Of a DNA stretch of 64,000 nucleotides, positions 291 through 60,302 are shown piece after piece; within the stretch, counting starts at the first letter, position 1, and every line of letters starts with the position of its first letter. The stretch spans positions 1 to 64,000 of the forward strand of contig BDIU01000472.1 of assembly GCA_002118135.1 (NCBI GenBank), written 5' to 3'. Origin of the DNA: Trebouxia sp. TZW2008. Its lineage: Eukaryota; Chlorophyta; Trebouxiophyceae; Trebouxiales; Trebouxiaceae. A program made the translations under genes and the position numbers. The notes under the pieces were generated by a model. The model was not told the DNA's origin and did not search any database. It was given only the letters and a program-made list of their open reading frames with translations.

Positions 291-3215
291 CACAAGCCAC
301 AAGTCTGCTTGCAGTTGGCCCTGCAAAGACAGAGCACGCATAAGTTCACAGCGCATAACATGGTACAGTATTTGCTTGTTTGCCTTTCAAAGGGCATAGT
401 GCTAAGTGCAGGCTGCCTCATATGCTGACACCAGACAGGATGCTGCTGGCTTCTTCAAACAATACGTGCTCAAAGGATGTTACAGCAAAATGCAAGACTC
501 CATTTGGCCCGCTGGATAGACTGCCACAAGAATGTGCTGAATTGATGTACAGATGTCTGACATATGCACACTGCAGCCTGCACAGACCAGAAGGGCAGCA
601 ATGCAATGATTACTGCAAGCACTCCAAAGTGTCAAATTTCAGTATCAGCATACCTCAGATAGTCACCAATGCCTCCTGGCAGGGTGCAGTCATTGTGGAC
701 ACTGGCGCAGATGCTGCCACAGTCTGAAGCCACATCAGCACATGCTCCAGCTGCAGGCAGAGGGCTTGGTGCAGCCGCTGTGCCAGATGAGCCTTGTTCT
801 CCAGGTGCCAATGGGACACTTGGGCTTGTGGAGCTTCCTGGCGCCGTGGTGCTAGGTGAGCTACCAGTGTTGGTGGATGTTGTGCTGCCAGGTGGTGTGC
901 CAGGAGAGGACTGCCCTCCAGGTGCTGAACCGGGTGCTGGTGATGTGCCAGGAGAGGATTGCCCTCCAGGTGCCGAACCAGTTGCTGGTGATGTGCCAGC
1001 AGGAGACTGCCTTCCAGGTGCCGAAGCAGTTGCTGGTGATGTGCCAGGAGGAGATTGCCCTCCAGGTGCTGAACCGGGTGCTTGTGATGTGCCAGGAGGA
1101 GACTGCCCTCCAGGTGCCGAACCAGCTGCTGGTGATGTCCCAGGAGGAGATTGCCCTCCAGGTGTGAAACCAGTTGCTGGTGGTGTGCCAGGAGATGACT
1201 GCCCTCCAGGCGCTGAACCACTTGTTGTGCTGGGAGAGTTTCCAGTGGGTGTTGCTGGGGAAGGTGGCTCGGGTTCAAATTGAGTGGCAGGCAGCTGGTC
1301 TGGTGATGCATTGGTGCCAGGAAAATCAGAAGCTGTGTTTGTAGGTGCAGGGGTGCCAGGACTTCCCACTGATGGCACAGGAGATGCATTTGGGGACTTG
1401 CTAATTGACCCACTTGATGGTGAGCCAGCTGAAGGTGACAAAGGTGATGGTAATTTTGGTGCTGAGCCTGTTGGCAGGGGTGTTGGAGATGGGCTGCTCT
1501 GACCACTGGTGGGTGAGGTAGTTGTTGGTGACTGTACAGGGCTGGCTGGAGGCCCAGATGCAGGTGGCGACGACACAGGCCCGGGGCTCCCTTGCCCTGG
1601 GGCAACAGTTGACCCTGGAGTTCCTGGTGTGCTGCTTGTCTGTGTGAAGGTTGTTGGGGCAGTGGTGGCAATGGGTGATGCTGAGATGTTGGGAATGCCT
1701 GGAGTTTGTGGAAGACCAGGACATCTGTTGCAAGTGATCTGACAGTAGCCATCAGGTGCTCCTGCTGCAGGCTTGGCTATTGAACTGCAGTTGCCAAGGT
1801 CCCTCTGCATGGCACTTTTGCACGGTCAGACTGATACAATGCTTGCAGGCACAGTAACAGAGTAGCAATGCAAGCCTATGCATGCATTGTGGTGTTGTTC
1901 ACACGCAGGTGTCGAGCAGGGAAGTGGATGTAGCAAGCGTGCTGGTTGCTCAAAGTTGCTTGTTTGCACTGTGCATCTAAGGCATTGCACAATGCTGCTG
2001 ACCAACTGAGCACAGGCTTACGACCATGGTGAAGCAAGATCCATGCAATCAAAAGTACGCAGCTTTGCATGGTCAGACTGATGCATTGACTGCAGACACA
2101 GTAACAAAGTAGCAACGCGAGCCTATACATGCAATGTGGTGTTGTTCAGATGCAGGTGTCAGAGCAGGTTAGTGATTGCAGCAAGTGTGCTAATTGCTTG
2201 CTTTGTGCACGTGAGGCATGGCTAATGCTGCTTACCAACTGAGCACAGGTGAAAGGCCCTGGTGGAGCAACATCCACGCATGCAAAAGTTCCTGGCGTTG
2301 AAGGTGTGGTGGCAGAAGCACTTGGGGATGGCGTCGCAAGAGGTGAGCTTGAAGGTGATGCTGCCGGAGGGCTCCCAGGTATGATGGCAGGTGCAACAGG
2401 GCTTTGGCCAGTGGGAACATTTGGTGTTGCTGGTGAGGTAGGGATAGAAGTGGGCGCAGGAGTGAGTGGCGGTGGCGTGGTAACAGGGGATAGGCGTGAG
2501 CCACTTGCAGAGCCAGGTGCTTCTCCTGTGGCTGGGCTGCCAGGCTGCACTGGAGAACGGCTAGGGCTTGAGCCAGAAGAGGGCACTGATGAGGGAGTTG
2601 ATGGGCTTGGAGACTGTGATGAGGTGCTGGGGGTTTGTGCAGGAGTGTTTGTGTGGGGACTGCCAGCTGCACTTGGGGACTGCACAGGTGGAACAGGCAC
2701 AGGAGAGCTTGTTCCTGCCCCAGACGGTACTGTTGGCCCAGGGATGTTTGGCGCAGCCGGTCCTGGTTTTGTTGCTGGTGGAAGCATACCAGGTGAGGGT
2801 GCAGGTGAGCTTGGTGTTGCAGTACTCAGGGTACCCACTGGAAAGCCAGTGCAGAAGCCGCAGTAGAGCTGGCAATATGCCCTGCAGACCAAGGCATTCT
2901 CAGTTTAAAACTGTTGATTCTGAAAGTAATTGCTTAGTCTGCTCTGATAGGCAATGCATCATGCTGGGAGCACAGGACAACAGCAATTTGCAAGATTGCA
3001 AGGACCTCACAGGAGATGTCTCACCTCAAGTATTGGCCTATTGGAGTGGAAGCAGAGCAGGTGTCTTCAACATTGCCAGGTTCTTGATCACACACTGCTG
3101 AGCAGTCAGGAGCGGTGTTGACACAAGAGGCGTTGCTGGGAGAGGGACCTAGCTGAGCAGACGACAGCACGGCCATGCACAGTAGGACGGTCACCAGACA
3201 AGCACGTTGCATCAT
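1..3215 (-). CDS. Secreted Pro/Ser-rich glycoprotein with ShKT-like Cys modules (3' end outside window)
   Basis: Exons 3025-3215, 2236-2881, 654-1804 and <1-320 splice in phase to at least 769 residues. Translation starts at ATG 3215; the codon further upstream is GTG. Residues 1-20 form a signal peptide (Met-Met-Gln-Arg, hydrophobic core, Ala-Gln), so the product is probably secreted or cell-wall bound. Three Cys modules are visible, each ending in a C-x3-C-x2-C signature (YCQLYCGFC, YCQITCNRC, NCKQTCGLC) like ShKT domains. Modules 1 and 3 are split by a phase-2 intron after Tyr-Leu-Arg, and module 2 by a phase-0 intron after CAQL. The modules are joined by long Pro/Ser/Thr/Gly linkers, and the last visible exon is nearly pure Pro/Ser. 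Such linkers are usually hydroxyproline-glycosylated, as in pherophorin or extensin-like algal wall proteins (family knowledge; glycosylation is inferred). No enzymatic domain is visible in this part; one could follow beyond position 1. Confidence 0.82.
890..1245 (-). repeat. 48-bp coding minisatellite, about seven units
   Basis: The string GCCCTCCAG (GCCTTCCAG in one unit) recurs every 48 bp at about 912, 960, 1008, 1056, 1104, 1152 and 1200. Each unit codes for 16 residues of the form GSAPGGQSPPGTSPAT with a few substitutions. The length is a multiple of three, so copy-number change would keep the frame. Confidence 0.9.
1811..2300 (-). repeat. Duplicated exon-2 donor end inside the glycoprotein intron
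   Basis: The block at 1811-2066 aligns along its length with 2067-2300. The right copy holds the real end of exon 2 (..CAQL then GTAAGC at 2235). The left copy keeps a similar reading (CMDLASPW..ACAQL) but has an in-frame TAA, so it is a decayed pseudo-exon within intron 2. Confidence 0.8.
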
Positions 3216-4428
3216 CCTGCAGGACACAGAGATCGCTCAGTGGCTGTGCAAAGCTTGAATGAAAGTATGGCTGCCGCACTGCACCAAGTCAGACGGAAGT
3301 TCGGAAGACACGCAGACTTACTTTGACGCTTCTGGCAGATCAGCTGCCACTTGATGTCGCGTCAAGGCAGCTGATAAAGCACTTGCAGAGGCCAACTCGC
3401 GAAGGCTGCAAGGCCACAGTGCACAGTTCGACTCGAGAATAGTAGGCAGTGCAGTGGCGGCAAACAATCAACACAGGCAAGCAAAGGCTAGCCAACACCC
3501 AAAGATAGCCGCAACTCTTACCTATGACAGACAGAAAGAGGATAGGCTCGTCGGCAGCGACGCTGACGACCTTGTCTGCGCTGCGCCCGGTAGCTGTGAG
3601 TTCAGCAAAAAGGCGGGGTTGCAGCCAGCTGCCCTGGGCGCAGCATTGCTGTCAGACTAACGCTGACTTGCTGTTTGTGTCAGTGTTCTCCACGCTTTGA
3701 GGCGGTGAAAGCGACGCAGTTGCAAGATCGCGCAAGTTTGTCTGCTCTTATAGCATCTCGGCCGAGATTTGAACTTTGCCTTAGAATCCCTTGTGCTGTC
3801 CTGTTGTGACGTAAGTGGCATCATGACACGGCATGGCATGCATTTCACGTCGTTGATTATTCTAACTCTCTTTGAACTTCAATTCTCTCTCGGCATGAAG
3901 CTCGACGAAGGTGCTTTGCGTGCCTTTGCAGCCGCACTGCGCAGCATGCCCTAGCGATGTTGATTCTTACCTCAACGACATGTCAACAGCCTAAGGGAAG
4001 CCCAGATTGAGCTTAAAGGCAACTGCTGCAGTCAAGCCTTGTCTAGGGAAAGCAAGTGGGGTGCAGACGCTACTCAGCAGCAGAGTTGAAGGCCGGCATA
4101 TGTGTTCAGATGAAGCAGCTTGCTACAGCACACGTACATTTGACCATGCATGTCACGTCCGTTGAGCATCTGAGCCAATCCTGTACACGTTCTGCCGAAG
4201 TCGCTATCATTGCCATACCACTTTGACATGTTTGCACCCCTACCAGGTGCTGTTCGTGAGGTGGCAGCAAGTCCATATGACTTCAAACTTCAGAAAAGCT
4301 ACAGCTCAAATTCCCACTTCTACACAGTGTACAAAAGAAATCGGTATAGCACATCTCAATCCCACTCAGCGTACAAAGCACGACACCAACACAAGAGCAA
4401 ACAAGTCATGACTAAGCATAAATCAGGT
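3216..4428. other. Intergenic: upstream region of the glycoprotein gene and 3' flank of bZIP 1
   Basis: About 1.2 kb separates two minus-strand genes. No ORF here has family-like sequence, and I see no tRNA or repeat. It should hold the glycoprotein promoter and the bZIP 3' UTR. Confidence 0.5.
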
Positions 4429-14814: not shown

Positions 14815-17800
14815 TCACAGCCAAGGCATCCACCAGATATACATCTGCCCCAAATTGTTCTTGTCAACAGCCTCTTCAATCAGCCTGTGGGCTTGTCCCT
14901 CTGTGGAAAGCGGCAAGGAAGGCATTGAGCTTACCCCCAGCAATGTTCCAGTCAGCCGACCTGCAAGTATGCACCGCAGCATGGATCTACAATGCAGTAT
15001 TCAGATGGTCAACAAGACTGCCTTACACCCTGGCAAGGGAGCCTGACATTACAAAAGCATCTGAGTATGCGCAGCAGCAAGTATGATATGTCAACAAATC
15101 TGTTTGCTGACGGCAAAGATTGAGTGCTTCAGAAGACAAAACTCAGCACGCCTTGAGTATATACAAAGCAGCAGCTCTGTGCGCTGGTCCAAGACAGTTG
15201 CAACAGTACCACCGTGACAATCATTTTGACTAGTATGGCAATGTCAACACGTGTGGTTCACAAGACGCAACTCCTCACATGTGACAAGTATTGCAAGTAT
15301 CAATGCACTGGCGAGACACAGTTTGCAGCATATTGTGGCAGCATGAGTGCCGACTCAAGACTGCCCAATCACGCATTCTCATGGCAACATCAAGATACAG
15401 CTCAATGGTAACCCTAGAATACATATGCTCACTACCAGAGTGTGCAACATCTCACCTTCAATGGTGGCCATGGCATCTCGTGCCATTGCGTTCTCTTGCT
15501 CTTCAGCCCCACTCTTGGCATTTTTGGGTACCCACTCCACCAGGGGATCATGCACCAGGGTCTCTAGCACACTCAGTAAAGTATCTCGATGAGTCCTCAA
15601 CACCTGACACATAAGGAGACAGTGAATCTTACATTTCACTTAACATACTTCTAACATTGTCATTGGCGTACTTGGGTTCCTAACAGGGGGTCATGCACCA
15701 GGGTCTATAGCACACTCAGTAAGGTGTCTTGGTGAGTTCTCAAGACCTGAGCCAGAGAGAGCGTGTCATCCTTCTTGATTTCACAGTTAGCAATGTTTGC
15801 ACGCCACAAAGAGGTCGTGCACTAGAGCCTCTAGCATACTCAAGTCGTCCCGGTGCGTCCTCCACGCCTCATGGCAACATGTAAATTATGGCTCATGATC
15901 CAGCCATCACAGGTTTCTGCACCATATGCAGGAAGAACCTCCCAACACTGTTGATGCAAATGCTTGCATGTACCTCTGTTCAGCAAGCCCTTAGCAGCAC
16001 TAGTTACACAAAAGCTTGCATGCATGATGTTGAGCTAACAATCGGCAACAGGGACTACATACAGCTATGTTCAGCAAGGACTTTGCAGCATGGACTCTGG
16101 AAATGCTTGCATGCGTAAAATCTAGCAAGGACACAGCAGTGATGGTCCTACAAACGCTCACATGCACCGTGGTTGGCAAGTCAGAATACCTGCAGGGTGA
16201 CCTCACAGGCTCTGCGGTAGGCTCCCTCAAAGCCAGACACACCAAAAGCATCCACTAGATTCTGGGTCAGTCTGAAGGGCACCATCTCAGGGATTGCCAA
16301 TGTCAGGCCCTGCAAGCGACATGAGACAAAATTTCCAGAGTACGTGAGCGTGCTTCACACCTAGACAGTCTTTCTTGGCCAGTCCAACTCGTAGCAGTTC
16401 AGGGTTGACCAGCCAGTGTAATCAAAACATGGCAATGTTGCAACATTGCATGATCATTGCCCGCCCATTAATGCTGCTTGTTTGCGAGTCAAAGGGGCAT
16501 CAAGTGTTGCTGATGTCAGCCTCTGCATGCAAGGCACGGTGGTTCCTCAAGATTGCATGATTATGAGATCATACACAGGTCATACAAAGGGAAAGAGGCC
16601 TTGGCCAGAGAAAGGAGATTATCTCAGGACCTGCCAGTTTGATGTACAGCAAAAGTAAATGTGATGCTCACCCTATCAAACAGGAAAGCAAAGTCCACAT
16701 GCACAGCGTCCCCAGTCGTGGCATCCAGCAGAATGTTCTCGCCATGCCGATCGCCCAGACCCACAATGTGGCCCACCATAGACCACGCAGCGGTGCTCCT
16801 TGTGAAGGCAAGCCGGGCAGTGTGCCAAGTTGCTGGCTCTGGAAAACGAGCTAGGAACCAACGATGCAGCACTGGCGGGTACATGGCCAGCAACTTGTCC
16901 AGCAGCTCACTCTTGCGCTTGCCCTGAAGTTAGCAGCATGCAGTGATTATTCTGTTGTGCGCACCTCACAAAGTCAATGCCCTTGAGATGTTGTACAAGC
17001 TGTCTGAGTGACATCAAAAGTATGCCAGCAGTGCAGCACTGGCGGGGACATGGCCAACAGCTTGTCAAGCAGCTCATTCTTGTGCTTGCCCTGAGTCACA
17101 TGTGACTGCTTTTGTTGTACAAGTCATGTACGCCTGCTGGCTGGTTCTGGAGAATGTGCCAGGGACAAGCGATGCAACACTGGCATGCACATGGCCAGCA
17201 GCTTGTCCAGCAGCTCACTCTAGCGCTTGCCCTGTTCTCAGCAGCATGCAGTGACCGTCTGTTGCGTACAGGTCATGGAGTGCAAGTTTGCTGACATGAA
17301 GAGGCATGCTGGTGCAGCGCTGGTGGGCACATGGCTCACTGCTTATGCAGCAACTCACTTTTGTGCTCATCTTGCACTCAATGCCATGCAGTGCTGCTGT
17401 GTAAAAGTCGTAGGATGCCAGGTAGCAAACTCTGGGAAACCTGCCAGACGTCAGTGGCACAGCGATGCCACATGTATGACCAGTAGTGCGCACTTGATAC
17501 TGTGTTCATTCTTGCTTCTGACACTTCAGACTGCCTGATTGTGCATGCATGCATTTGTGTGCTGTGAGGTTTGCAATACCTGAAAGCCGTCGTAGATCTT
17601 CTTGACGGTCAAATTGACAGTGCGCTTATCGTAGGTGCCATCAGCGATGTAGATGTCTTGGCAGCAGTGTCTCAGACCATGGGTCTGTGGCACCCACTCA
17701 ATGATGCCCGTCTCCTCTGTCAATGGAATCACTGCAAATCTGAACAAGCAAACAGCATGTTAGCAGCATGCTTGTTGCAGTGTGCTTGTTGTAAGTTCTG

Positions 17801-20800
17801 TCAGCAATATAGATGTCTTGACAGCAGTGTCTCAGACCATGGGCGTGTGGCACCCACTCAATGATGCCCGTCTCCTCTGTCAGCGGAATGACTGCGAACC
17901 TGCACAAGCACCCAGCAGCAGCTTGCATGGCCATTGTTCACACTGAGCAGTCTAAAGGGTAGATGTCATGCCAGATAGCATGCTGCCGTCATGGTTTCTG
18001 GCATGACATCTACTGCACATACTGCTTGACATGTTGTAGACCACAAGGCAAGTCAAACAGCAGGTTCTGTTTATTCATCTGCTCACTCAGCTGAACAAAC
18101 TCAAAGCAATGCTGCAGTCACTAACACAGGAGCGTGCAAGAGGCAGGCACCAGTGCTGGCTTGCCTGCGTATGAGGAGCTTCCAGCAGAAATAGGCAGGT
18201 CATGTTGCAGAAAGCGGATTCAGATGGCAATGATGGTTCACGCACCTACTCTCAGCATGCGATATGAAGCAGAACAACAGTGTACTCATCACAACAAAAG
18301 GTTTACAACTGGCAGAAACAAAGAAGGGTGCTTGCCTGCGTATGAGGAGATTTCGGCGGCGTGAGGCAGGGTCCTTGGCAAACAGGCGGTTCAGTACGCT
18401 GGCAACCTCCATCATGCGATTGTCCTTGCGCAAATCATCTTTGGGTTTGGCCAGAAAGCGATACACCTTCCCATCACTCCCTATCAGGTCCACCTGCACC
18501 ATTTGGTGAGTTGGCATCAGTTCTTCCTCATGATAGTACTGAAAGACTTTCATCAACGGGATATTTGCCTTTTCTTTGAGGCAAACACTGATCAGCTGCC
18601 TTTGGTTGCCAGACACATTCACCTGTGCTTCACCAGGAAGTCCGATGAGTCACACCTGGCTCCCTACCCCGGACTGTAAATTCTATTGATTGAAAGACGA
18701 GGACACAAGGGCAAGTCAGCGTTGTTGATTGCGCTCAACTTGCGCTGAGACTAAACACCTGTCTGAAGGCATGAAACACTGGCGTAATGAAAAGCTCGGG
18801 TGCCTGCCTGCCCTTGTGGATGCAAATGTCAGCAAAAAGAAGAATAAGGCTGGAAAAATCACCTTTTTGGGCTTCTGTAATGACGGCAGCAGCTCAACCT
18901 CATCCTTGATGTCAGCTATAGTGACAACTTCAGCAAAAGGCTGATGCTGTCTTTCAGTGTGGCCACTAGTGGGCAGTGTGAGAGTGAGCCCTGTGTTGAC
19001 TGGCATCATCACGTCCAGTGGCAGTGAGCGGACCAAGGATGCGAAGTCCTTCTTGGCTGAAAAGGACCTGCATGACAGTCAACACATTAGACAGTGACAA
19101 GAAGAAGAAAAGGAAATGGCCAGGTGTCACAGTGTCTGTCTCTGCAAGCAGGACAGACCGGAGTCGCAACTCCTAGGGCAGTCAGCAGCAAGTCTGAGAG
19201 AAGCTTACATTGAGGTACTTGCACAAATGTCTCTGGCCACATGTTAACTGTTTTGATGGCAAGTACAGAGCGCAAGCAGACACAGCGTTTGTAAAGAGCT
19301 TCTGCCAGCATCAGGCATTAAGAAGCAAACACACATTTGTAGTCTGAATTGCAAGTTTCAGGCTGACCCTGGCTGTCTCACATGCAGATGCACTCACTTG
19401 GCTTTTGGGGGTGGCTGGTGGTTGCAGAGGCGGATGAGCTGATCGCACAGGCTGGGGAACTGGTCATACAGCTTCTTGTTGTATGGCTTGCTGCAGTGCT
19501 TCTTCAAGGTGTTCATAATTGCGGCAGCTGCCTGTTTGCGTCCCATCACCAAACTCTTCTGCACTGCTGCCAAAGCCCACAAGGCCTGCATCACAGTTCA
19601 AGAGAGGGTTCAAGGGGGCCCCAAGTAGGGGTCACTTGGCTTTTATAAATTGCAAAGGCGGATGAGCTGATCACACAAGCTGGGGGACTGGTCGTACAGC
19701 TTCTTGTTGTAGGGCTTGCTGCAGTGCTTCTTCAGGGTGTTCATGATTGCGGCAGCTGCCTGTTTGCGTCCCATCACCAGGCTCTTCTGCACTGCCGCCA
19801 AAGCCCACAAGGCCTGCATCAGTGTCACTTTACAGAAGCAATGTGCAAGGGGCACGCCCTCTGATGACTCATAGCCACATTCACAACTGTATTCAGGGAG
19901 GAGAGAGGGACACAGCTGACGTCCCATCACAAGGCACTTCTGCATTGCTACCGACGCCCACAAGGCCTGCATCAATGAGGGTCGCAAGTGCAAGGCACTA
20001 GGGGGATCAACTAGGGGTAGCTAAACTGCTGACACCTGTTGGTAGCACTGCATTGTGCCATCATGGCAACCCAAAAGACTGGTCGTGTGACACAGTAAGT
20101 GAGGGTCAAGCGCTAGCAAAGCTGATGCAGCACTGCACAAACCAAAGCAGCTCGGATGAAGACGGCATGAACTGCTTCATTCACCAGCTGAGGTATACCA
20201 TTGCAAGTGCATATGTCCAAGGACACAGACAAACCCATTTTCAGACTCTGTAACTGCACAGGGTGAAGTCAAAGTTGTTTTGAGCGCCCTGACCATTTGT
20301 TGTACCTGTTGAGATAATGCTTCAGCCACATGGGGATGATGTGATTGGCCACAATGTTGACTTCAGCACAGGCTGCAGCACAAGCTATGTTGAGCGCAAC
20401 AAACATGTGCAGCACCTGTTGAGGATGTGCCTAAACACAACAGTATGAGATGGTCAGTCAGGGTGTGTTTGAGGGCATAACACATATGTTGATACCTGTT
20501 GAGGATATGCTTCAGCCACATGGGTGATGATGTGGTTGGTCACAGTGTTGACTTCAGGGTTGGAGTGGCAGATGCGGGAGATGAGCTGGGGCAGGGCTGT
20601 TAGCCAGGCATAGCTGGGAAGGGCTTTTGCCATGGTCGCCATGATGTTGGCCACTGCTGTGCTGACTTGACGATTCTGCAAAGGCATAGCATTTGCGCCA
20701 AACAGCTTGACCACTGAAGGCATTCATTGCCTTGATGCAGCTGACATTGCTGCTGTAGCTGCAAACACAGGCAGGAACGTGCTGTGGCATGCAATTTGTA

Positions 20801-23800
20801 TACGGCAATGGGGTGATCCGTGCATGAACGAATGGGCTTGCTGATGTGCTGACTTGGCGGTTCTGTCTGTGCATAGCATCACCAACAGCACGACTGCCAC
20901 CATCATTTGAATTTGTGACGCAGCTAGGTGCATACAGGAGCAACACAATGCCTCAAACTAATCCTATCCAATCCTGCCCTGTTCACCACTGCTGTGCTGG
21001 CTTAGCAGTTCTGCACAGGCACAAGTCAAAGCACATCATGCTGATCATCAGCAGTCATCCTTTGCATGATCTACATGCTTACTAATGAGGACCCTGCTAG
21101 GTGCATCAGCCATTTTACAGCAGGCCTTTGTTGCCATGACTACAGTTTAGTCATGCTGGCATTGCCACATGACTGAGAGGTATGCCGACAGCTATAGCTC
21201 TGTTGTACAGCGCTCGGCACGCCACCCTTATGCAGCAGTGACAGCACGACTGAACTGAGAACATGGCATGATAGCTCAGCAGACTTGTGAGTGCAGTCAA
21301 ATGCATGCTGCAGGCAGCTCAACTAGTGAAAGTTTTCAGGACTGATTGGACCTTCTGAGTTCATGTGATGCTTTTGACGTGGGACCAAAAAGCAAGCCAC
21401 AGCGTCAGCAAGCATGGCAAGCACTGGAAGATGTGACGGTGAAACAGCCAGCATTGCTGGAAGCAGCCTGCTACAGGATGTATGGTCAGACTCAGCTGCA
21501 TCTTGCAGACAACTTGCCGTCGGAACCTGTTTGAATAGTGGGTATGCCTACCTTCTGAGTGACTGTGATGCTTTTGATTTGGGATCCAAAGTCAAACCAC
21601 AGCGTCAGCAAGCATGGCAAGCATTGGGAGATGTGGCGGTGAAACAGCCAGCATTGCTGGAAGCAGCCTGCTACAGGATGTACGGTCAGACTCAGCTGCA
21701 TCCTGCAGACAACTTGCCTTTGGAGGCTCTTGAGAATTGGACAAGCCTACCTTCTGAGTGACTGTGATGCTCTTGATGTGGGACCCAAAGTCAAACCACA
21801 GTGTCAGCAGTCGAGGTAAGGATTGGAAGATGTGCCTGTGGCCATACTGCACAGCTAGACCATAGTTGCGGATGACCTCAGGTAAAATCTCTAGATGCGG
21901 CTGATCCTCTCCCATTGGTATCCTGCAGCGCAAAAGGAGCCTGAAATATGCTCTCTTTTGTCTCTTTTTCACTGCATCTTGCACTGCAATTGTCTGTCAA
22001 AGTACCCCCTGTGACTGAATTGTACCCTAGTGACATCAGGCAGTCTATGGCAGACTCAGCATCCATACTTATAAATGATGCAGACAAGAGGTATGTGCTT
22101 CAGTTCAGGCTTCAGCACAGACACAGCATTCCAGCTAGCTCGCTAACCCCATAGCATTGAGCATCAGCAATCAGCACAAGATGTGTCATGGATAGTTGTG
22201 ATACCTTGAGCGGCCTCCAAGTCTGTCCATTGGCTTTGCTGATCCTCTGGAGACAGCAGTGAGTGCTGTTTGGCGCTGCCTTGCATCCCTCATCAGCTGA
22301 TCCAGGTACACTGCATAGCTGAAGTAGCCCTTCTCCCAGGACTTGTCCAGGCTGATGGCACTCTCAAACAGCCCTACAAGGTGTACAAACGTTCAGTTCC
22401 TGTAGAGCAATGCTTCTTCCAGGGTCTGTCAATTTGCATGCATTTGCACTCATGAGCCGAGCGACCCTCGTCAACAGCCCTAACAAAGCAGGCAAGCAAT
22501 CAAAGCCTGTACAGTTGACACACAGGCTACGCACGTATGCAACTGCATCCCGCATCAGCTGGTCCAGGTACACTGCGTAGCTAAAGTTGCCCTTCTCGCA
22601 AGACTTGTCCAGGCTGATGGCCCTCTCAAACAGCCCTGTCACAGCATGTGCAAGCAATTGATTGCTGAAGAGTCAAAGCAAAACCCAGGGTTTAGATGCA
22701 TGAATGCGGTGCAACTTTGACGGGTCGATTAGCACTGTTGCCCAAATACCCAAAAGTCTGCTTTTGAGCAGATACTGCCTGCGAAGCATATGCTGTTTGT
22801 GGTGCAAATTGACAACGCTGCTTGACTTGACTTCCACCCATGTTCTGCTGATGTGCCTGACTGAGGGTCTGTCTGAGCAAATTGATCAGTGCACATCAGG
22901 GGTTTCACCTGTGATGTCAGACTTGGCACCCTGGCCAGTGGTTGCCATCCAGGTGGCCAGCTGCAGCACCAGCTTTGCTTCTGTCCTTTTCTGCTGAGCG
23001 CCCTGCCCGCCACTGCTGCTGGAAGCGTTGTTCCCCACATGCTCAGCCTGCTGCAAGATCTGCACGACATGCGCAGAAAAGACGTGACGCTGCAGTGATT
23101 TTGTCAGGGTGCTTTCAGGCTGTTTGCCTGTATTGCCGCTGCTGCTGGAACTGGATGTGCCCATTTGCTCAGCCTGCTGCAAGATCTGCACGCACACGTG
23201 AAATCCTGTAGAGTGCGCTATATGTTGCAAATATTTAGACTGTGTCCTCTCTTGTTTGACGCACTGCCCGCCCTTGTTTATGGAAGTAAAGATGCCCACA
23301 TGCTCAGCCTGCTGCAAGATGTGCACGGTACAGCACATAGATTGGTTGCTAAACCAAGGTCCAGGCAAACACACTGCAGAGGATGCTCACAGGTTGCTCC
23401 TGTCTATGCCTGGTTTGAAAGGTTTGTAGCAACAGAACAACAATTCAGTGCTGACCTCTTGCAGGCTGACAATAGCCCTGTGGGGTTTGTCCATATCCCA
23501 CAGCAGTTTGGCCCTTTCCAGCCCTGCCCCAGCCACTTGCCTCACCACAGCCTCAAGGCTAGCTGTTGTGGCCGCCTCAAAGTGCCCGCTCACCCTGCAT
23601 AGCTTGGCCTGTTGCAGCCAGCATTGACCTGCCTCTGCCTCTGCCCCACCAACCAATGCTAGCTGCCGCCTCAAAGCAAGGATGGGTTCCTGTACAGGTC
23701 ATGATGAGGTCGAAGATTATGCTGCCCATGAGGTTGGGTCAATGTGCACAATTTGCCCTGCTTCTGCCTCTGCTCTGTCAACCAGTGCTAGCTGCTATCT

Positions 23801-45572: not shown

Positions 45573-48433
45573 GTGCTGGAGTCCTTCATTGAAGCTAGGC
45601 TGTATCAAGCACCTTGCAAAGTTGCGACTCACCTCGTCCAGAAGCCATCCTTTGCGCCACGGGTTGCCGGTCGCCCCCGTGCGTTGAGCAGCTTGCAGGC
45701 TGCGTGCTCGCAAGTGCAGGTCGGCGATGTGCTGCAGTTAGAGTGCTCGAAACTAGCGCTCGGAGGCAAGGTACACCTGAAACTTCTGCTGATACATGTT
45801 CACAAGGCACTTGTCCCACCAGTGTCTCACTAAACTTCTTGTCCCAGGGAGTTTGCAAGCATGAGTCCGGACTATTGGTCTTCACTGACGCTCTAATTGG
45901 TGAACACCTGACAGCGAGCGTCACTGAGGTCAAAAAAGGTGATGCCACACAGACCCCCGCTACATCTTGCAGCACGGTGTCGTCATGCAGGGCATCAGAA
46001 TGTACGCAGCACACTGTCTGTTGCACGCTATGCTGTGCATCCCCTGACAAGCACACTTTGCAGGTTATGCCAAGGCTGCAAAGCTTGCTGTTCTCAGAGG
46101 CCCAGACAACCCAGCAACGCCGCCTTGTCCACATTTTGGAACCTGTGGAGGCTGCACCTATCAGAACTTACAGTATGGTGCTCAGCTGGAAGCCAAGCAA
46201 CAGCAAGTTGCTGAGACCCTGGAGCGAATTGGACGCATCAGCAACTGTGCAGATGTGCTTTTACCCATTGTCCCTTGTCAGCAGCCGTATCACTACCGCA
46301 ATAACATGCAGTTCACCTTCAGCAGAGCAGACATTACCTCTGGTCAACATACAAGCAGCAAGCAGCTGATTCTTGGACTGCACAAGCTCAACGGCCCTGC
46401 AGAAATCACCCCCATACAAGCTTGTTTTCTGCAGCATGACAGTGCTAACAAGCTCCTGCAAGCCGTCAACACAGTCTTGAATGCTCAAGACGCAAGCTCA
46501 ACAAAGCTGTCAGCCTTGAATCCTACCACCAATCAGGGTTTCCTGCGCCAGCTGATGCTCAGAAGAAACTCCTGCAACGAATTCATGGTTGTCATTTCCA
46601 CTTCCAGCCATCAACCACAGCTTCTGAAACCACTGGTTACAGCACTATGTGATTGCAATGTACCACTCCTCAGCATTGTGAATACTGTCATTCCGATACC
46701 ACCAATTGCCAGTTCACGCAGCAGACGTATACCGCAAAGGCGCAAAGCACAGCAGGTCATGAAGCAGCAGCAGCAGGAGCGCTCATATGTACTTAATGGG
46801 TCACCAGCAATCACAGAGCAGATGTGTGGCCTGACATTTCACATATCCCCTGAGTCCTTTTTCCAAGTCAATTCAGCACAAGCTGAAGTGCTGTACAAAC
46901 TTGTGCGGGATGCAGCTGGTAAGCTCTGCCCTATCCTTGTGCCCTGCCCTTGCCCTAATCCCTTGCTTTGTCTGGGACCCTGTCAGAGAGAAGAATTTTT
47001 GCTAATTTTAGCAATTGTGTGTCTTGTCGATTGTCTTGCATGCATGATGCATTTGTCAATGAAGCATCTTGCAAGGAGGGCAACGACATGTGAATGCAGC
47101 ACTTGCAATCAATGCTGTCAGGCATAGCGAAAAATGCAGTGAGTTCAATCTTTTTGCAGTGCCCTTCTCAAACCAAGAGCTAGTGAACTTCTGCAACTAC
47201 TCCTGTGTCGCCTGACCTGATGCTGCAGCTCTTGCAACAGATTGGTCATGTTGGTTCTTTAGCCACAACCGTCAATGACTGCGTCTTGTATGAGGTTCTG
47301 AGACTGTATTTCAATTATTGAGGCGTTTGGTGCCATGCAGGGTTGCGTGACAATGACATTGTGATGGACCTGTTCTGCGGAACTGGCTCCATTGGGATGA
47401 GCCTAGCACAGCATTGCAAGCATGTGTACGGCTTTGAGGCTTCTGCTACAGCAGTGGCTGATGCAAGACAGAGCATGGCCATGAACAACATCAGCAATGT
47501 GACTCTCGTACATGGCGACTTGGCCAAAGTTGCAGCGACCATGGGGAAGAATTATCCCAAGCCAGATGTCATTGTGACAGGTCTGATGCTGTCAACGCTG
47601 TCTCTGCTTTGCTGGTGTGCGGGGCACGCTTTGCTGGAATGCTATGCACGCTTTGCTCATGTGCATGCTTTGCTTGTGCGCTGTGCATGATTTGCTCATA
47701 AGCTGCCCCTGATTTGCTGTGTTGCTGTGCATGTTCTGCCAATGTGCTGCATCTGCTTTGATGCTCACCTTGTTTTCGCGCTGCCTGGCTGAACAGTTCC
47801 TGAGTACAGGCACAGTGCTCATGTCAGGCATGTTGTATGTATATCCCTGCAGCTGTGCACTGGACATTTTTTGCCTGATCGCTGCCAGTCAAGTGTTTCT
47901 GTGATGCTGTGAGCTGTTGTTGAAGAAGCACTATCTGTTTCATGGTCAACATATCTCTGCCTTTGCCAAAACATTGCCAAGTCGTGCTGTGTCAGCATTA
48001 CATTGTTTGCTGTGTGATTTGCAAATCCAGCTCATGCTGGTATGCCACCTAAGCTGAGGGCATACTTGCAGCAATCTGGGACACGCACCATTCTGTACGT
48101 CACTTGTGACCCTGCCACACAAGCTGCATTTGTTGCTGAAAGGCTGTCCAAATGTGGTTTGGCGCTTGATTGTTTGTTGTGTGATTTGTAGATCCAGCAC
48201 GAGCTGGAATGCCACCTGAGCTGAGGGCATATTTGCAGCAATCTGGGGCCCGCACCATTGTGTATGTCAGTTGCGACCCTGCCACACAAGCTAGAGACAT
48301 TGCTCAGCTCTGCACGACTCCTGGAGCTCAATACAGTCTGACACAAATCCAGCCGTGTGACATGTTCCCAAACACACCTCACATTGAATGTGTTGCAGTT
48401 CTAGAGCATATTGCACGTGCAGCTGCAGGATGA
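45573..48433 (+). CDS. TrmA/RlmD-type RNA (uracil-5-)-methyltransferase with TRAM domain; 5' end unresolved
   Basis: SAM-dependent m5U methyltransferase of tRNA or rRNA. Exons <45573-45770, 45848-45938, 46064-46918, 47341-47580 and 48192-48433 join in phase to at least 541 residues. Exons 1-2 make a TRAM-like RNA-binding domain (GDVLQLECSKLALGGKGV, LIGEHLTASVTEV). CPHFGTCGGC looks like the Fe-S cluster Cys set. The SAM motif is DLFCGTGSIG, the DPPRxG motif appears as DPARAG, and SCDPATQARD holds the catalytic Cys. The first conserved exon contains no in-frame ATG, so the initiator lies in an unrecognised upstream exon (candidate ATG 45468) or is non-AUG. Compartment cannot be told without the N-terminus; plant homologues include organellar proteins. 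Family is certain, but the RNA target is not. Confidence 0.88.
48020..48165 (+). repeat. Copy of the last methyltransferase exon (acceptor end)
   Basis: The block repeats the exon start (PPKLRAYLQQSGTRTILYVTCDPATQA) just upstream of the real exon (48192-48433). Its AG acceptor is mutated (GTAG to GCAA) and it diverges after Ala. Confidence 0.85.
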
Positions 48434-49213: not shown

Positions 49214-52200
49214 TTAACGCTGCACGTTGACACCACCCTGTTCCTCAACAGCCTTCCTTTCAAAGTAGCCTGTGATCTGGTCACTGACAGCCCATACAAT
49301 AGCTTGACCAGGAGGAATCCGCATCAGTCTAGGCAGCAAACCCTTCCACAGTGCACGCAAACCCTCTTCCCTAGGAATGGTTTGTAGGGCATGCCACAGG
49401 CCGCGGTATTTGGCAGGACCCTCTGACCTCTCTTGCGCCATAAGCCGGGTCTGCAGTGTGTATCAAGGAGCGGTGTTGAGAACATCAAGAACGTGCTGCC
49501 TTGCAGCCAAATGTATTCATTGAGATAATAACAACCAGCAAGCCTTACAGCAAAACGGGGCGTTGTGTCTATCACACCACTGCAAAGAAGCGCTCACCAT
49601 GAGCTGCCAGAGGCACATGTTGCTGTAAGAGAATTACACAAGCACTCAACAGAGTACATGCAAGTCTGCCACAGACACCAAAACACACAAGTGTACCAGG
49701 CATTGCCAGACTGCTCCAATCGTTTAGGCAGATTGGTTTGCATGCTGTGTTTTGGTGCCAACAGAAACCCTCGTGATCACTGGCCTAGCAATTCAGCCAC
49801 AAGCATGCCAGATGGACTGAAAGACAACATGTTGATGTGTCTACCCTGATGACATCAAAGGTGCCAGTACAGCAATGTCCTAAGCTGATGTCACGGACTG
49901 CAGCGGGTCAGTTGCCACCCATCGCCTTCATGCTTGCAGCTGTAATCAATCTAAATAGCAACCAACAGTCTTGCTGATAGGCTCAAGATAGCCAGCCGCG
50001 CCCAGATATGTAGTGCTTACCTTGATGACATCAAAGGGACCAGTACAGCAGGGCCCCAAGCAGGCAGCTGAAAAGCCTGATGCCATGGACTGCAGTGGCG
50101 TCAGTTGCCGCCCATCCCCCTCATGCTTGCCCCAAAGTATGCTGCAGCAGCCATACAACATTGCTAAATGTATGTTTGCAACACTTCATAGTAAGCATCA
50201 CTAAATCATGCATGCCTGTAGCCACTGAAAAGCCTGATGCCGTGGACTACAGCGGCGGCAGTTGCCGCCCGTCACCATCCTGCTTGCCCCAAAGTATGCT
50301 GCAGCAGTCACATCGCATTGTTGAGTGCTCGTCCTTCATATATACCAAGTAAATCTGCATATGCTCAGGCGTGGTACCGTTTATGGTAGAATATGCATCA
50401 TGAGAGACATCACACATAACTGTGACTCAACAGCTGTGCAGCCCCTCATCCAGGGTTGACTACTTGTGGCAGCTCTTGATGTTTTGACAGCGGGCATGCC
50501 ACTCTTTAATCTTGTAGCTAGCGAAACTACTTCCTGATTCAAAGACCATGACAAGCAGTTATTTGTTTGCTGCTTTACACAAACGTCCAACTTGGCATAT
50601 TGAGAAAGGCGTCAGGACCAGTGCACACAGTACTGTTTTCAACTTCATAGCTTACCCATCAAAGTTATTCTTGGCCCAGAAGAGACACATCTGGTTGGTG
50701 CCATTGCGCATGACAGTAGGAGCTGCACCAGCCCATAGCCCCAACAGCCCTTCCTCCCTTGCAACTGTCATTGCACAGTGCACTGGGCCCTGCAGTGGTA
50801 TCAAGGTATATGGTCAACATCTATGTACAAGGCAAATCTGAATTCAATGTCTCCCTAGTAGCCACATCTGATAGGAGCCACTGCGCATGATAGTTGGGGC
50901 TGCACCAGCCCACAGCCACAACAGCCCCTCCTGCCTGGCCACTGTCATGGCACAGTGCACTGGACCCTGCAGTATCAGCCAGCTGCCATAAACAACTAGG
51001 TACAAGTGTACTGGTCCCTGCAGTCATTGTGATACAATTAGCATCTACACGCACCAGCGCTGTGCTGCCAAAGTTACCCTACAGGCTGTGCGCTGCATGT
51101 TCAGAGCGACTGATCATGCAAATAAGCCAGACACTCGAGTGGGTTGTAGCCAGCCCAAGCAGCCACCCAAAAGGTGCATAAGCCAAGTCATGTTCCAAAC
51201 AAGCAAGCTACAATCACTATGGGTGATGATACAAGCTTGCCTTGTACCGCAGGAGCTCCTTACTGGTGCCCTTCTGCTGCTGCAGCTTGATCTTGACTAC
51301 CTCAAAGGGTGTGACTATGACCAGCGCTTCTGTGATGCCGGCTGCAAAGCCCGCTGCCAGACGCCTTGCACTTGACAGGTCGCCATTCTGCAATCAGGGA
51401 ACAGAGTCTGAGTATAGCCTTAGTATAGTCTTAGTGACGCCATCAGTAACATGCTCCCCAATAGCTGGCAGAAGAATTTGCACAGCACTTGACTATTGAA
51501 ACTGTTGTTGTGCATTGAATGGACATCCAGACTCTAGGTGCAGTGATGCCGCAAACATCACATGCTGTGTCAGTCAAACGTGCTCATGTGCAGAATGCCT
51601 GCAATTTCTGCAATCCGCTGTGAACGCAGGAAGCGCTATGCAGTGAGCTGCCTTTCCGCTTGGCCTGCCTGACTTTAACTCCTCACAGGGCAGGAAGCAT
51701 CTTCAGTAAAGCATGCTTAGTAATGATTTTTGTTATTTGCTCTAAAATCTCACCTCATCACGCAGCAGACTCTGATATAAGGCATTTGTGCCCATACGCA
51801 GTGCATACTTGAGGGTGAGGTGCACAGCAAATGGAGTTAGACCTTTCCATAATGCCCTCACACCCTCTTCCTTGATGACTGTTTCGCCACAGTGCCAGAT
51901 GCCTGTGCAGTCATCACGGTCAGCAACCTTGCTGTACTTACCCAGCCTGTTTCAAGGTAGAGGTGCAGAGATGTCAAGGCAGTGCTAACAAGCTTACCTT
52001 TGTACTTGCCCACATGATCAAGCTGTAGTCTAGTTTTAATAACATCTATCGGCTGGAGACAGCATGCTTCAGCAGCACCTCCAATAGAGCCTACGTCAGC
52101 GCGACACAATGATTTTGAGGGTAATGCTCGCTCATGTGCATCGTGTTGAGCCGCGCATCCCGTACCAGCTATGCTTTTGACGGCAGGATGCGCAGGTTTC

Positions 52201-52229: not shown

Positions 52230-53408
52230 CCTGCCCCTGACGTATTGAACGGGGTGACCTTTGTGCCTCGCTCAACACGCCACCGCACTTGGCTAGCGCC
52301 GCAATGACAATTTGAAAAGGCCCGGCCTCGCGCACTGTCAGCAACGGCCAAGATTCGAACCTTTCGGTGCTTCGCGTCACAGCGTCGCGGTCGTAGCGAG
52401 CCGCCACCGCCTGACCGACTCCAGCAGCTAACAACGAGCTGCCGCGCGCAGTAGCGCACGACCTCCGCTGCGTGCTACACAAATGCGCCCGCAGACCTAA
52501 TCTTGTTTGTCAAGCTTTGACCGGTGTTTGCTCGGCCCCTAGATGTTGACTGAGGGGTGACTCATGGCATGCTTGCAAGACTTGCTTGACCTGCAGTATT
52601 TGAATGTGGAGCATTGGCTGGGGTGCGGGCCAAGTACCCTGGTTTGTTTGAGAGCTGCGGTTATAACATGCGCGTTTTTTTTGCGCAACATGATCATTTG
52701 GGGGTGTTTCACTATGTCATAGACTGCCTTAATTTGATGGACATGTAGTCATTGCCACAGTGTGGCACATGTGATCAGCCTTGTTGGCTGGCTAAAGCAT
52801 GTGAAATTATTCTCTCTTTCTCTTTGCAACTGCTCATTTCGCTTTTTACAGGGCCCTGGCAGAGCCCAAACAACTTACGGCAGCCTGCATGTTGTCGGCA
52901 TCGCTCTTCAGCAAACACAAATATGGCATGCACTGCAATAGCGCAGGGCTGGTCAGCAAATTTACAAAGCTTAAACAGCAAAATCCAAGGACTCTGTATG
53001 GTCTATAGTAACATGCGTTAAAAGCTGTGAAGGGCCTCGTCAGAGCATTACACTTCTGCATGCAAACCATCACGCTATACAAGCTGCAAAGGGGGAAATA
53101 CTCCAATCACACCAAAACTGACAAAACCTTTATTGCACTGTGTGTGCTCCAAAATTGTCTGACCAAGCATACAGAGCCTGCTGACATGTGCAGACTTGGG
53201 CATGACGTGACTTCAAACAAGCCCCCACATTATCGCCCTACACACTACGGATGCTATCTCATGCATCAGCTGCCATGCTCTTTCTGCTGTTGGCAGTCTT
53301 TCCAGTGCATAGCTGGAGTCTTCTCGTGAACTGCATCTGTCTTGCGCTGCATCTGACTGAACTGCAGTCTACATCTGGCTGAAACTGCAGTATGCATCTG
53401 ACCAACCC
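52230..53408. other. Intergenic: carrier promoter and oxygenase 3' flank
   Basis: 52230-52500 is clearly GC-richer than its surroundings and is probably the carrier promoter/5' UTR. Long minus-strand frames there begin with non-ATG codons. The rest shows nothing but a short CTGCATCTG-type repeat near 53330-53400. Confidence 0.5.
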
Positions 53409-56329: not shown

Positions 56330-57026
56330 GATAGGCGTCTAAACGAAGCTGCTAAAGACGAGCAGGCCGGTCCGGGCTTATCAGAGCTTGAACTTGTTGC
56401 GCAGGGTTTGCTGACAGGTCTGTCGATACGAGCCGGTATGAAGTGCTACGAAGAGATCAATTGATCAGCGCTTGCTTAATCGCTTACGTCTGTATCACTC
56501 AGCTAGTCCGAGCTCGATAAACAAGATACGTTGATTGCAGGAAAGACTACGACGCCAATAGCAGGTGAGGTGTCGCAACAAATGCGTTCCGAAAGCTTCA
56601 AGAAGAGCTAGCACACCAGTATCGCAAGATCTTCAGCCAATGCGTTTGCAGATGATGCCGAACGTGGCGCCTGGTCGAGAAGCTTGCATTACATATCCGC
56701 GGGCTTGGCCGCGCTGCACGTGCCAGACAAAATTTCAAGCTAAAATGCCAAGTAATCACATTTCAGCAGTACTTTGCAGTGGTACTTGCAATATTGTCAC
56801 TCAGAAATCTCATGCCTGCACGTGCCGGCAAAGGCGCAGTACTGGATTAGCTGAAGTGAAACGCCCTTGGCGCTGCATTTCGCCCTGCCCCACTGCAAGC
56901 CCCAGCGACTGCTGCATTGGCTTTGCATGCATTTACTGCCGGCATATACTTGTCCATGTGCGACAGTTTGATCAGGAAGGGCATCGCATTCAGGCAAGCT
57001 TGACGAGTGTTAGTGCTTTGCCGAAC
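56330..57026. promoter_or_regulatory. Divergent upstream region of oxygenase and reductase
   Basis: 697 bp between two opposite start codons. It includes a plus-strand frame running into the reductase (56565 on), which I read as 5' UTR because the conserved protein starts at ATG 57027. Confidence 0.45.
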
Positions 57027-60000
57027 ATGGCGAGCACAGTTCTTGTCACTGGCGCCACCGGGTATCTTGGATCTGAACTTGTCAAGCAGTTGCTGGAGAA
57101 GGGGTATACCGTGCACGCTACAGTGCGGGCGCCCAATGACACAAAGACCGTGCAGCATTTGCAGAATCTTAGCGAGGCTCTCCCTGGCCAGCTGAAACTA
57201 TTTCAGGCTGATCTACTGCAGAGACAGGCATTCGATAAAGCTATTGAGGGATGTCAGTACGTGTTTCACACAGCGTAAGTCATCTTAACTAGGTCAGTCT
57301 GAAGCACGGCTCTGTCAGCAATGCATGGACACGCAAATTCAACCTGTGACCGCAGATCACCGTTCTTCATAGAGGTTGAGGATCCACAGAGAGACTTGAT
57401 TGATCCAGCAGTTCAGGGCACTTTGAACGTGCTCAGCTCTGTCATCAAAAGCAAAGACACTGTCAAAAGAACGATTGTGACATCGTCAGTTGCAGGTGAG
57501 CAAATCTCTTGCCCGCTGAATCTCCTCTTAGTGTCCGTCTGGTGTTTGCCTTCTCTAGTGAAATCGTCATGGTGTCCTGTGTCATTGCAGCTGTGCTGGG
57601 AAACGAAAGTGCTGCACCACCCAAGAATGGCTCTCTGTACACTGAGGATGACTGGAACGATACGTCCAGCATTAAGAACAATGAGGCCTACTGGCTAAGT
57701 AAGGTGCGCAGCGGACAAGAGCACAAGTAGCATCCATCATGATGCTCTACAGTTGACACTTTGCCACGATAGGCCTGAGCAGCCAGCAAAGCATGCCTTG
57801 CTTAGTACAGTAATTACTCTTTGTAACAACTGTTTTGGTTACCAATAAACTTGTCCTCACATCGAAGTGTCCTCGCTCAGAGGAACTACTGCAGTCAGAA
57901 TGCAGTGATTGCCTACCAATGGCTTTGTCCTCGCATCGAGATTGTCCTTATATTGAGTGTCCTTACAAAAATAGCTTACTGTACCTGCATAACTTGTCAG
58001 CTGCGCTTTGAGCCAATCCTGTAAGCATAGCATTGCTCAACATAGCACAGCATAGTGAATCAGCTGGTGCTTGCCGCTTGTGCAGTCTCTGGCTGAAAAG
58101 GAAGCGTGGAAAGCTGCCAAGGAACACGGCCTGGATCTTGTGACAGTTCTGCCTAACTTCAACCTTGGTCCTGCCCTCTCCCGCCAAGAAACTAAGGGTC
58201 TCAGTGTAGGTTTCATGAAGGTGAGCGCAGCTGACTCATCCAAGTTTCTGTTGTGTTCCACACTGCGTTAGCTGCACAAGCTGTTTGGCAACCCTTCCTG
58301 GGAATGTTGCCACTCAACCTGTGTGCACATCACCGTGAGCTTCAGACTCATCAATTACAAAGATGACATTGCGTGTACAAGTGCAGGTTTTGCATTAGCT
58401 TTAGTGTGATTCATACAAGCGATGCTGCTATGCCTGCAGCACCATTGAGTCTCAACCTATGTAAATGATCACAATTGTGCACTGCAACCACTTACACTGT
58501 TTGCAAAGTCACTCTTTCAGTTGACTTGAGACACAGCTCCAGACTGCAACAGGGAAGGCACCGACAGTGAAGCATGCCATGTTTGTAAACACCTGTTCAA
58601 CATGTCATCACTCCTCTGAATATGGAGTTGCTCAGGGGCGCAAGATTTGTTGTTTGTGGTGAACAAGTATATACTCGAGCAGCTATTGCAATCTGCTGAT
58701 ATGCTATGCAGTAGGCCTGCTTAGAGAATGACATCATTGCTGGAACGCCAGTGGTTGTGGATGTCTGAGACATGTGACTTTGGCAGAAAGCACATTGGCA
58801 TTGACTCATCATCTGTCTGTGCATGCTTACCCAAGATGCTGTCTTGCCTCAAAGTATGTCATGACTCAGAAGTACAAGATTCAGAAATATAAGACTTGTT
58901 GTATGCGCAAAGCAGGCATATAGCTGGTCAGCTTTTGCAACTTGCCAATGTGCTATGCAGTAGGCTTGTTTAGAGAGCGACACCATTGCGGGGACGCCAG
59001 TGATCATTGATGTACGAGATGTAGCAAGGGCGCACATCTTGGCAGCAACAATACCTGAGGCCAAGGGTCGATACATCATCAGTCACAGGAAGCCAATCAC
59101 CCCAAAGCTGGTGTCAGATACTCTGCAGGTAGCATTTGACTTCCCTGAATGCTTCTGCTTGTGAGTAGACATTGGCCCTGTGTAATGCCTGATGGGGCAG
59201 CATCAAATGGTCTCTGGCCCACATAGCAGTATTTGCATGACACTGCGGTTCTCCCCAAATTTGCTTTTGGTATCTTCCATCGCAAATGGCTGCGTGCCTG
59301 GAGCCTACCTGCACAACAGTGCAAAGCGCAAGTGGACATTACAGCTCAGCAAGTGACCAAAGCAGCTGTGTATGGCTGCCATGTGCTGTGACATGATGCG
59401 GCAAACAGGGCAGATGTACACATGATGCTGAGCGTGTCTGAAAGGCTCATGGAACATGGCAATTCTAGCATTGTTGCTGCTGTCTCATTGCAGCTGGATA
59501 GGTTGTGCCTACAGGCAACGCTCAATGACTTTGAGAGCCACAATGTCTCACATCGATTTATGCTGCACAGGCTCGCTTCTTGGACTTTCAGATTCCTGAT
59601 GGGGAGCAAGCAGAGTCGCCTGAGAAGATTGACAACTCCAAGGTATGCTGCATCTGCAAGAGAGAGCAAAATTTACTCCAGTATACATGTCATTCCTACA
59701 CTTGCATCTGTATACATGCATGGTCAAAGTCACTCAAGGATGTGTTATGCAGTCTTGCTGTAGCAACATCAATGTTGTGCCATGCATCTGACTGCCTTCA
59801 TGCAAAACTGCTGTGCTATTGGTACAGCAGTCGATCAGCAAACTAGACACTGTAGTATAGCATTGCTGCAACCTGTGCATCTTGCGTAGCTCTTGCAGGA
59901 ATGCTGTAATGTGCTGCTAGTGCATCTTTCATTGTGCTAAGTTTTGATCTCAGGCTGCTAATTCTCACAGAGGCTACCATCATGATGCCTAGCGGCATGA

Positions 60001-60302
60001 AGTTTTGTTTTTCTTGTCCAATACATTCTGAGAGCTTTACTGTTTCACGCAGGCAGCTAAGGAGTTAGGCCTGCAGGTGAGGCCAGTGAAGGAAATTCTG
60101 GTAGATATGGCAGTAAAGCCTAGCGGCGTAGACTTTTCCTTTTGCTTTTCTGACAGATTCTGAGAGCTCTGCTGTTTGCATGCAGGCGGCCAAGGAGTTA
60201 GGCCTGCAACCTCGGCCAGTGAAGGAAACCCTGATTGATATGGCAGTAACGCTCATACAGCTGGGAGTTGCAAAGCCCAGACCAAAGCACAGCAGTCAAT
60301 GA
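57027..60302 (+). CDS. Extended SDR, dihydroflavonol-4-reductase / cinnamoyl-CoA-reductase-like
   Basis: NAD(P)H-dependent reductase of the extended short-chain family. Exons 57027-57274, 57356-57495, 57591-57703, 58086-58220, 58976-59128, 59571-59642 and 60186-60302 join in phase to 325 residues. The dinucleotide fold starts at residue 4 with TVLVTGATGYLG (G9xxG12xxG15). Arg-Ala-Pro in TVRAPNDTK suggests NADP. TSSVA holds the family Ser region, and Tyr163-x3-Lys167 is the catalytic pair. DVRDVARAHILAA is the usual DFR/CCR segment. In green algae the substrate of such enzymes is mostly unknown, so a flavonoid or lignin role should not be assumed. The acceptor of exon 5 (58976) was chosen for phase; a 2-nt shift would break it. 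TGTAA at 60333 may be the algal polyadenylation signal, 30 nt after the stop. Confidence 0.88.
58680..58765 (+). repeat. Copy of reductase exon 5 acceptor end
   Basis: GTAGGCCTGCTTAGAGA.. and the codons for D.IAGTPV..DV are repeated about 250 bp upstream of the real exon (58976). The frame then hits TGA. Confidence 0.8.
60050..60140 (+). repeat. Copy of reductase exon 7 acceptor end
   Basis: AG|GCAGCTAAGGAGTTAGGCC and the following codons (AAKELGLQVRPVKEILVDMAV) repeat the last exon 130 bp upstream of it. The copy then diverges (KPSG). Confidence 0.9.

Follow-up and report, generated by a model that had tools for sequence, protein, structure and literature searches.

Intron lengthening is mostly attributed to transposons, and Gao and Lynch reportedly described in 2009 how introns are created by tandem duplication. 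In plants, paired nicks or patch-mediated repair yield short, local tandem duplications, sometimes with filler; we know of no link between these and splice sites. NAGNAG-type tandem alternative splice sites lie a few nucleotides (nt) apart and are in use. Vertebrate repair-mediated proximal duplications number 824 events in a whole genome (mean 162, median 147 bp); few of these touch exons, one exon copy is reversed, and two copied exons show no coding constraint (PMC2671141). Introns also arise when coding sequence that includes a proto-splice site is duplicated in tandem (PMC2891723). Here we analyze a 64,000-nt stretch of the green alga Trebouxia sp. TZW2008 (contig BDIU01000472.1, positions 1 to 64,000; the window), whose introns carry diverged copies of exon edges. 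The main carrier of this pattern is the gene of the PI3K-like checkpoint kinase ATR:

14818..41026, minus strand, ATR gene, 26 kb with about 39 coding exons

The assembly totals 68.5 Mb in 527 contigs. ATR was identified by Pfam matches to FAT, PI3_PI4_kinase and HEAT_ATR and by a PDB match to ATR (E 1.7e-38). Its exons were modelled with a purpose-written spliced aligner against P0002, the predicted 2505-residue ATR of Trebouxia sp. C0006; the first model had 41 exons and the later one 39, two having been merged as one open reading frame (ORF) and one copy-derived exon removed. Among the 120 matches listed for the kinase exon, predicted proteins of Trebouxia sp. C0006, C0005 and C0009 had the top identity (95, 95 and 90%), and whole-protein identity was 78, 79 and 83%, respectively. 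Exons of GCN2 (locus L015, template P0121) and KIN10 (L009, template P0251, with P0299 for one exon) came from the same aligner, and the three genes with their 59 introns form our homology-checked set. A wider set with mostly ab initio exons comprises the window and 20 further 10-kb loci (21 sequences, 264 kb); these loci were picked around kinase matches and hence are not a random sample. On ATR, the ab initio finder in its last round reached a nucleotide sensitivity of 0.97 and a specificity of 0.79, with 26 of 41 exons exact. As it takes copies for exons and overlooks some exons, we based our main test on homology exons. Pairs with homology touching two exons or with a copy overlapping an exon were left out of the counts. 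The minimum exonic overlap was 25 bp in the three-gene set and 30 bp in the 70 exon–copy pairs of the wider set, and where one exon side had several copies, the best-scoring alone was counted.

The exon-edge copies are real, dense and beyond chance, and they are more frequent at junctions than under random placement, which bears out the dense junction-spanning copies that a first-pass annotation had read from the window alone. In the pooled three genes, a splice junction lay inside 36 of 42 repeat families, five families were intron-only, and one touched inner exon. Rigid random shifts gave 22.4 ± 2.75, 13.5 and 4.9 families, respectively, and none of 2000 shifts reached 36 (P<0.0005). ATR by itself had 24 junction families of 25, with one intron-only (null about 14.7, standard deviation 2.0–2.2); this count was reached by 0 of 2000 independent shifts and by a fraction of 0.0005 of 2000 joint shifts. 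For GCN2 alone, P was 0.009. Moreover, the annotated side rule, i.e., that copies 5′ of an exon carry its acceptor half and copies 3′ of it the donor half, held at all 36 exon sides with a copy in the three genes and in 67 of 70 pairs of the wider set. Copies flanked 26 acceptors and 10 donors (59 of each), and 23 ATR exon sides bear one. ATR exons with copies include:

15456..15603, minus strand, exon; acceptor-half copy 15684-15750, offset 143
16672..16923, minus strand, kinase exon; acceptor-half copies 17032-17094 and 17140-17254
17580..17739, minus strand, exon; acceptor-half copy 17778-17917, offset 160
19398..19585, minus strand, exon; near-complete copy 19650-19821 (94% identity), further copy 19920-19977
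20496..20675, minus strand, exon; donor-half copy 20294-20366, weak acceptor-half copy upstream
21751..21922, minus strand, exon; donor-side tandem array with intron, copies about 21550-21641 and about 21350-21441
22205..22373, minus strand, exon; acceptor-half copy 22544-22637 (91%)
25114..25276, minus strand, exon; acceptor-half copy 25429-25537 (89%), homology ending 6 nt beyond the exon
25981..26287, minus strand, exon; acceptor-side array, copies up to about 26727
30988..31256, minus strand, exon; donor-half copies 30789-30907, 30665-30754 and 30489-30604
33060..33332, minus strand, exon; acceptor-side tandem array 33380-33933 with intron sequence
34269..34460, minus strand, exon; acceptor-side array 34512-35058
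36007..36196, minus strand, exon; donor-half copy 35864-35913, acceptor-half copy 36222-36298

The self-comparison of the window that had been proposed as a check returned 73 direct and four inverted pairs; within 1 kb, 72 were direct and none inverted. The 20 further loci held 181 direct pairs at 60–1000 bp and seven inverted pairs at less than 1 kb, and Markov-resampled sequence gave no direct pair. Copy offsets were typically 100–200 bp, with a median of 162 bp (10–90% range 99–341, in a search limited to 700 bp), and sources and copies lay within the 5 kb that delimit repair-mediated proximal duplication. Junction offsets of the nearest copies ranged from 78 to 496 bp, with 71 of 72 at 99 bp or more and 65 of 72 within 99–262 bp. 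Like NAGNAG sites, the copies present several look-alike sites per junction; unlike those, they are mostly 99–262 bp rather than a few nucleotides apart, and exon sequence is copied, too. Shortness and locality are shared with the plant duplications. The similar-sized local duplicates near their source resemble vertebrate proximal duplications, but they occur in 29 of 59 introns, are junction-linked and almost only direct (PMC2671141). Proto-splice-site intron creation likewise involves partial exon duplication next to splice sites; there the duplicated unit turns into the intron, whereas our copies lie within larger introns and show no inner-end splice-site excess (PMC2891723).

The 29 introns with a junction copy were longer than those without (mean 666 bp compared with 353 bp, P=6e-7). 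With repeat-covered bases removed, their mean was 394 bp and the difference was no longer significant (P=0.08). Local repeats, i.e., exon-edge copies and arrays, made up 28% of intron bases in the three genes. In the 21 sequences, 16 comparisons showed greater divergence in the more distant copy than in the nearest and three showed less (P=0.004), in keeping with the annotated tendency of divergence to rise with distance; the correlation across 94 copies was weak (rho 0.18, P=0.08). Our data suggest that introns grow by repeated short local duplication at exon edges.

The copied unit has an outer limit that the first-pass annotation did not mention. Homology ended 0–25 nt beyond the exon at 27 of 36 exon sides in the three genes, and the wider set had 48 such pairs out of 70 (29 of 41 acceptor-type, 19 of 29 donor-type), with median chance extensions of 5 and 2 nt. 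Ungapped match frequency fell from about 0.65–0.77 in the junction-side exon to 0.25–0.39 past about 12–25 nt of intron, the null being 0.23–0.28. A branch-point limit was considered as cause of the outer end and dropped: 361 predicted introns from the window and the 20 loci lacked a clear branch-point motif and showed just a T-rich stretch from −15 to −5, upstream of the acceptor, and donor-type copies were similarly limited. Separately, a 55-bp array at L007 (plus strand, 1820-1985) has the donor GT of a predicted exon 3 bp from a unit boundary, as judged by eye, and its later units are intronic.

Mismatch at the three codon positions was 0.12, 0.099 and 0.229, respectively, over the 70 exon–copy pairs, and the third-position ratio was alike in the 38 ORF-intact (2.0) and 32 broken copies (2.2). 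Also, there was no overdispersion (61 pairs, P=0.14), and we discarded the third-position excess as a mark of translated copies. Gaps were not multiples of three in 46 of 52 cases (six were), and the copies contained 11 stop codons. Retention of the splice dinucleotide (AG in 30 of 39, GT in 21 of 28) was about at the level that we estimate from the copies' own mismatch rate, and inner ends of copies were not enriched for donor or acceptor GT/AG (35 and 24 copies). The copies thus decay like non-coding DNA. From the frame-breaking gaps, the equal third-position ratios and the missing splice-site excess at inner ends, we infer that they are mostly not exons and that use of their sites would change the protein. 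Splicing at the site of the nearest copy would add 78–496 nt, and the earlier proposal of a splice-site choice without consequence for the protein is hence unsupported. Junction offsets were not clearly enriched for multiples of three (18 of 39 and 4 of 28); a preference for such offsets looked strong with raw offsets, weakened once junctions were used instead (P 0.09 and 0.04) and was dropped.

That the copies are functional alternative, mutually exclusive or poison exons would agree with the ab initio model, which adds about six ATR copies to the exons, and with copies that differ chiefly at third positions, e.g., 2, 0 and 13 differences for exon 29940-30164. We regard it as unlikely, given the mostly frame-shifting gaps, the stop codons, the unenriched inner ends and the ORF-intact copies that showed no extra coding constraint. 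More than 75% of the exon was shared in 11 of 70 pairs (among them window 19650-19821 and, on the reverse strand of L015, 508-623), which also speaks for this reading, and at most 75% in the other 59; complete exons with both sites and coding constraint, as in duplicated alternative exons, were not what we found. Likewise in its favour, a copy-derived stretch is present in the predicted C0006 protein, where residues ~2267-2300 of P0002 form a 17-residue tandem peptide that matches the copy-derived exon of the kinase exon duplicated in this genome. At kinase exon 16672..16923, the predicted C0006 ATR reads GKRKSELLDKLLDMYPP plus GKRKSELLDKLLAMYPP. This repeat may be an annotation artefact. As the two proteins are 78% identical, the duplication either is an old one that both have preserved similarly or arose twice. 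On the opposing side, BLAST self-comparison of the relatives' ATR proteins found no internal repeats, yet it overlooked the existing 17-residue repeat.

We consider the best explanation, with a probability of roughly one half, to be that exon edges are duplicated locally and in series, that splicing tolerates this and that the copies then decay neutrally; this would account for most of the observations. One exon edge with 0–25 nt of adjoining intron would be duplicated locally in direct orientation into this intron, presumably by a replication or repair process. The duplicate would usually lie 100–260 bp from the original, often with several in series and the newest probably nearest the exon. 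Such duplication would be tolerated because splicing picks the complete exon, i.e., by exon definition. The copy, with at most one splice site, would be skipped and decay like non-coding DNA, and introns would lengthen through such copies.

Several observations weigh against this explanation. It leaves the end of the unit at the splice site unexplained; plain tandem duplication would also copy the intron flank, and no DNA process known to us would place the outer end there. Match frequency keeps a small residue above the null deeper in the intron, and flanks tested locally were shared in the intron by 18 of 60 pairs (11 of the 35 acceptor-type and 7 of the 25 donor-type pairs, where 5% would be expected). 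KIN10 alone showed no significant junction excess (P=0.35). With ab initio exons in the 21 sequences, the excess was weaker (a junction in 98 of 140 families; null 78 ± 5), and families confined to introns were not depleted (36, with 39 expected). The weaker excess arises in part because the finder misses exons; one of these 36 families (window 48002-48292) is a missed exon that a Pfam match overlies. Wholly intronic arrays, according to the finder, exist in L009, L010, L012 and L017. Copies changed at codon positions 1 and 2 by about 0.11, compared with about 0.17 estimated for exon silent sites, so a phase of constraint on copies is possible; 25 copy–copy pairs also differed most at position 3 (0.328 vs. 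0.236 and 0.216). Finally, pair identity had its mode at 75–85% and reached 95% in 2 of 247 pairs, and the process may therefore have slowed, or young copies may be quickly lost.

The locally shared flanks speak for the main rival, head-to-tail tandem duplication of 100–260 bp across junctions with fast intron turnover, where the exon part and splice signals alone stay recognisable. The strict direct orientation and the side rule suit it as well, and clear tandem cases exist, i.e., a reductase-like exon (listed below) and true arrays at ATR exons 33060, 34269, 25981 and 21751, which are among the flank-sharing cases. We hold it to be possible, but not probable. A global flank test covered pairs with an offset of at most 260 bp and a spacer of at least 25 bp. 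In 47 pairs, homology between spacer and outer flank was at control level (mean z 0.40 vs. 0.34; z>2 in 5 of 47 vs. 1 of 46); simulated flanks gave z of 3.8–5.2 at 35% and 2.0–3.0 at 45% divergence, hence the test had power. Fourteen pairs with an exon mismatch of at most 11.5% were mostly without flank homology (tandem-partner z −1.0 to 2.5), although they averaged about 0.7 and two exceeded 2, which counts against serial duplication of exon edges. Aligned intron parts had a mismatch of 0.18 over 2827 bp, near the exon-part level, a value that includes still-alignable intron only. Copy–copy comparisons with no exon on either side, thus unconstrained on both, likewise tended to end near the junction (in 15 pairs the outer ends ran from −17 to 51 with a median of 17, seven of them within 0–25), and both results speak against fast turnover. 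Homology over the whole period, as in plain tandem duplication, was missing from most pairs and was seen in the 18 of 60 and in the arrays. As homology stops 0–25 nt outside the exon and flanks are mostly unshared, most pairs appear not to be plain tandem duplications, which would fit a minority. From the annotated view that introns grow by tandem duplication across splice sites, repeated short local duplication and growth stood, whereas tandem duplication as the general form did not. In two light-harvesting paralogues (third-position mismatch about 0.20; five exons, frames by eye), blastn aligned exon stretches only, as fast turnover would have it, but these genes are possibly old and codon-biased. 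As an intron clock they were confounded by this possible bias, reductase paralogues were too distant (best 59%), and both were given up.

Gene conversion from the exon that rewrites old tandem copies, with homology surviving only where the exon is constrained, would also account for outer ends that coincide with the limit of constrained splice signals. This should yield many near-identical pairs, and with just the two pairs at 95% or above we find it improbable. A rare recent local duplicate was observed at L021 5911-6206, a head-to-tail pair of 148 bp with 98% identity. Rather doubtful is a transcription- or splicing-linked duplication in which pieces delimited by the reach of the splicing machinery (exon edge and 0–25 nt of intron) would be written back next to the gene, perhaps with pre-mRNA as repair template, so that introns would grow from their own exon edges.

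Mobile elements as copy source left no sign in the one region searched genome-wide: a 751-bp query around ATR exon 25114-25276 matched itself and its local copy only, in a search that skipped very common words. Yet among spacer and flank queries against the fetched loci, the L005 spacer and the L011 and L017 flanks matched other loci over at least 50 bp, so some spacers or flanks apparently contain dispersed repeats. The L005 spacer, beside a predicted exon (reverse strand, 6897-7059), contains a short sequence that recurs in L023, L017, L041, L019 and the window at 78–87% identity, hence a dispersed repeat.

Altogether, the pattern suggests an unusual, splice-site-linked mode of intron growth. 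If strain comparison and RNA confirm it, the alga would record intron growth directly and in datable form and show how the spliceosome ignores close decoys 100–260 bp away; the outer limit at the splice site would require a mechanism that we have not yet seen described. As the first-pass annotation had supposed, a search of open-licence papers, top matches only, returned no description of such copies at this density. Word-searched passages of the Coccomyxa genome paper (PMC3446292) and of three genome papers on Trebouxia or lichen algae (PMC12712428, PMC11523091, PMC11126685) contained nothing on the pattern.

Three further window genes have the pattern, i.e., those of a tRNA-U5-methyltransferase, a probable mitochondrial carrier and a reductase-like protein:

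48169..48292, plus strand, exon region of the tRNA-U5-methyltransferase gene, missed by the ab initio model; copy 48002-48125
50021..50141, minus strand, predicted exon of the probable mitochondrial-carrier gene; acceptor-half copy 50225-50310, donor-half copy 49842-49937
59987..60252, plus strand, last exon of the reductase-like gene (named by eye); copy upstream of it, 131-bp head-to-tail unit

The tRNA_U5-meth_tr Pfam match spans residues 2060-2135 (about 48179-48406) in a frame that starts at 42002. The mitochondrial-carrier assignment derives from a nearby Mito_carr match on the same strand, the exon being from the ab initio model. A tRNA-synthetase homologue also lies in the window, as do, besides the reductase-like gene, bZIP-like proteins named by eye only.

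Two long proline/serine-rich frames stand at the start of the window, and one of them (632-1810, minus strand) contains a 48-bp tandem repeat at 891-1224. Positions 11560-12190 form a CTGCCC-rich array with periods of 20, 32 and 67 bp.

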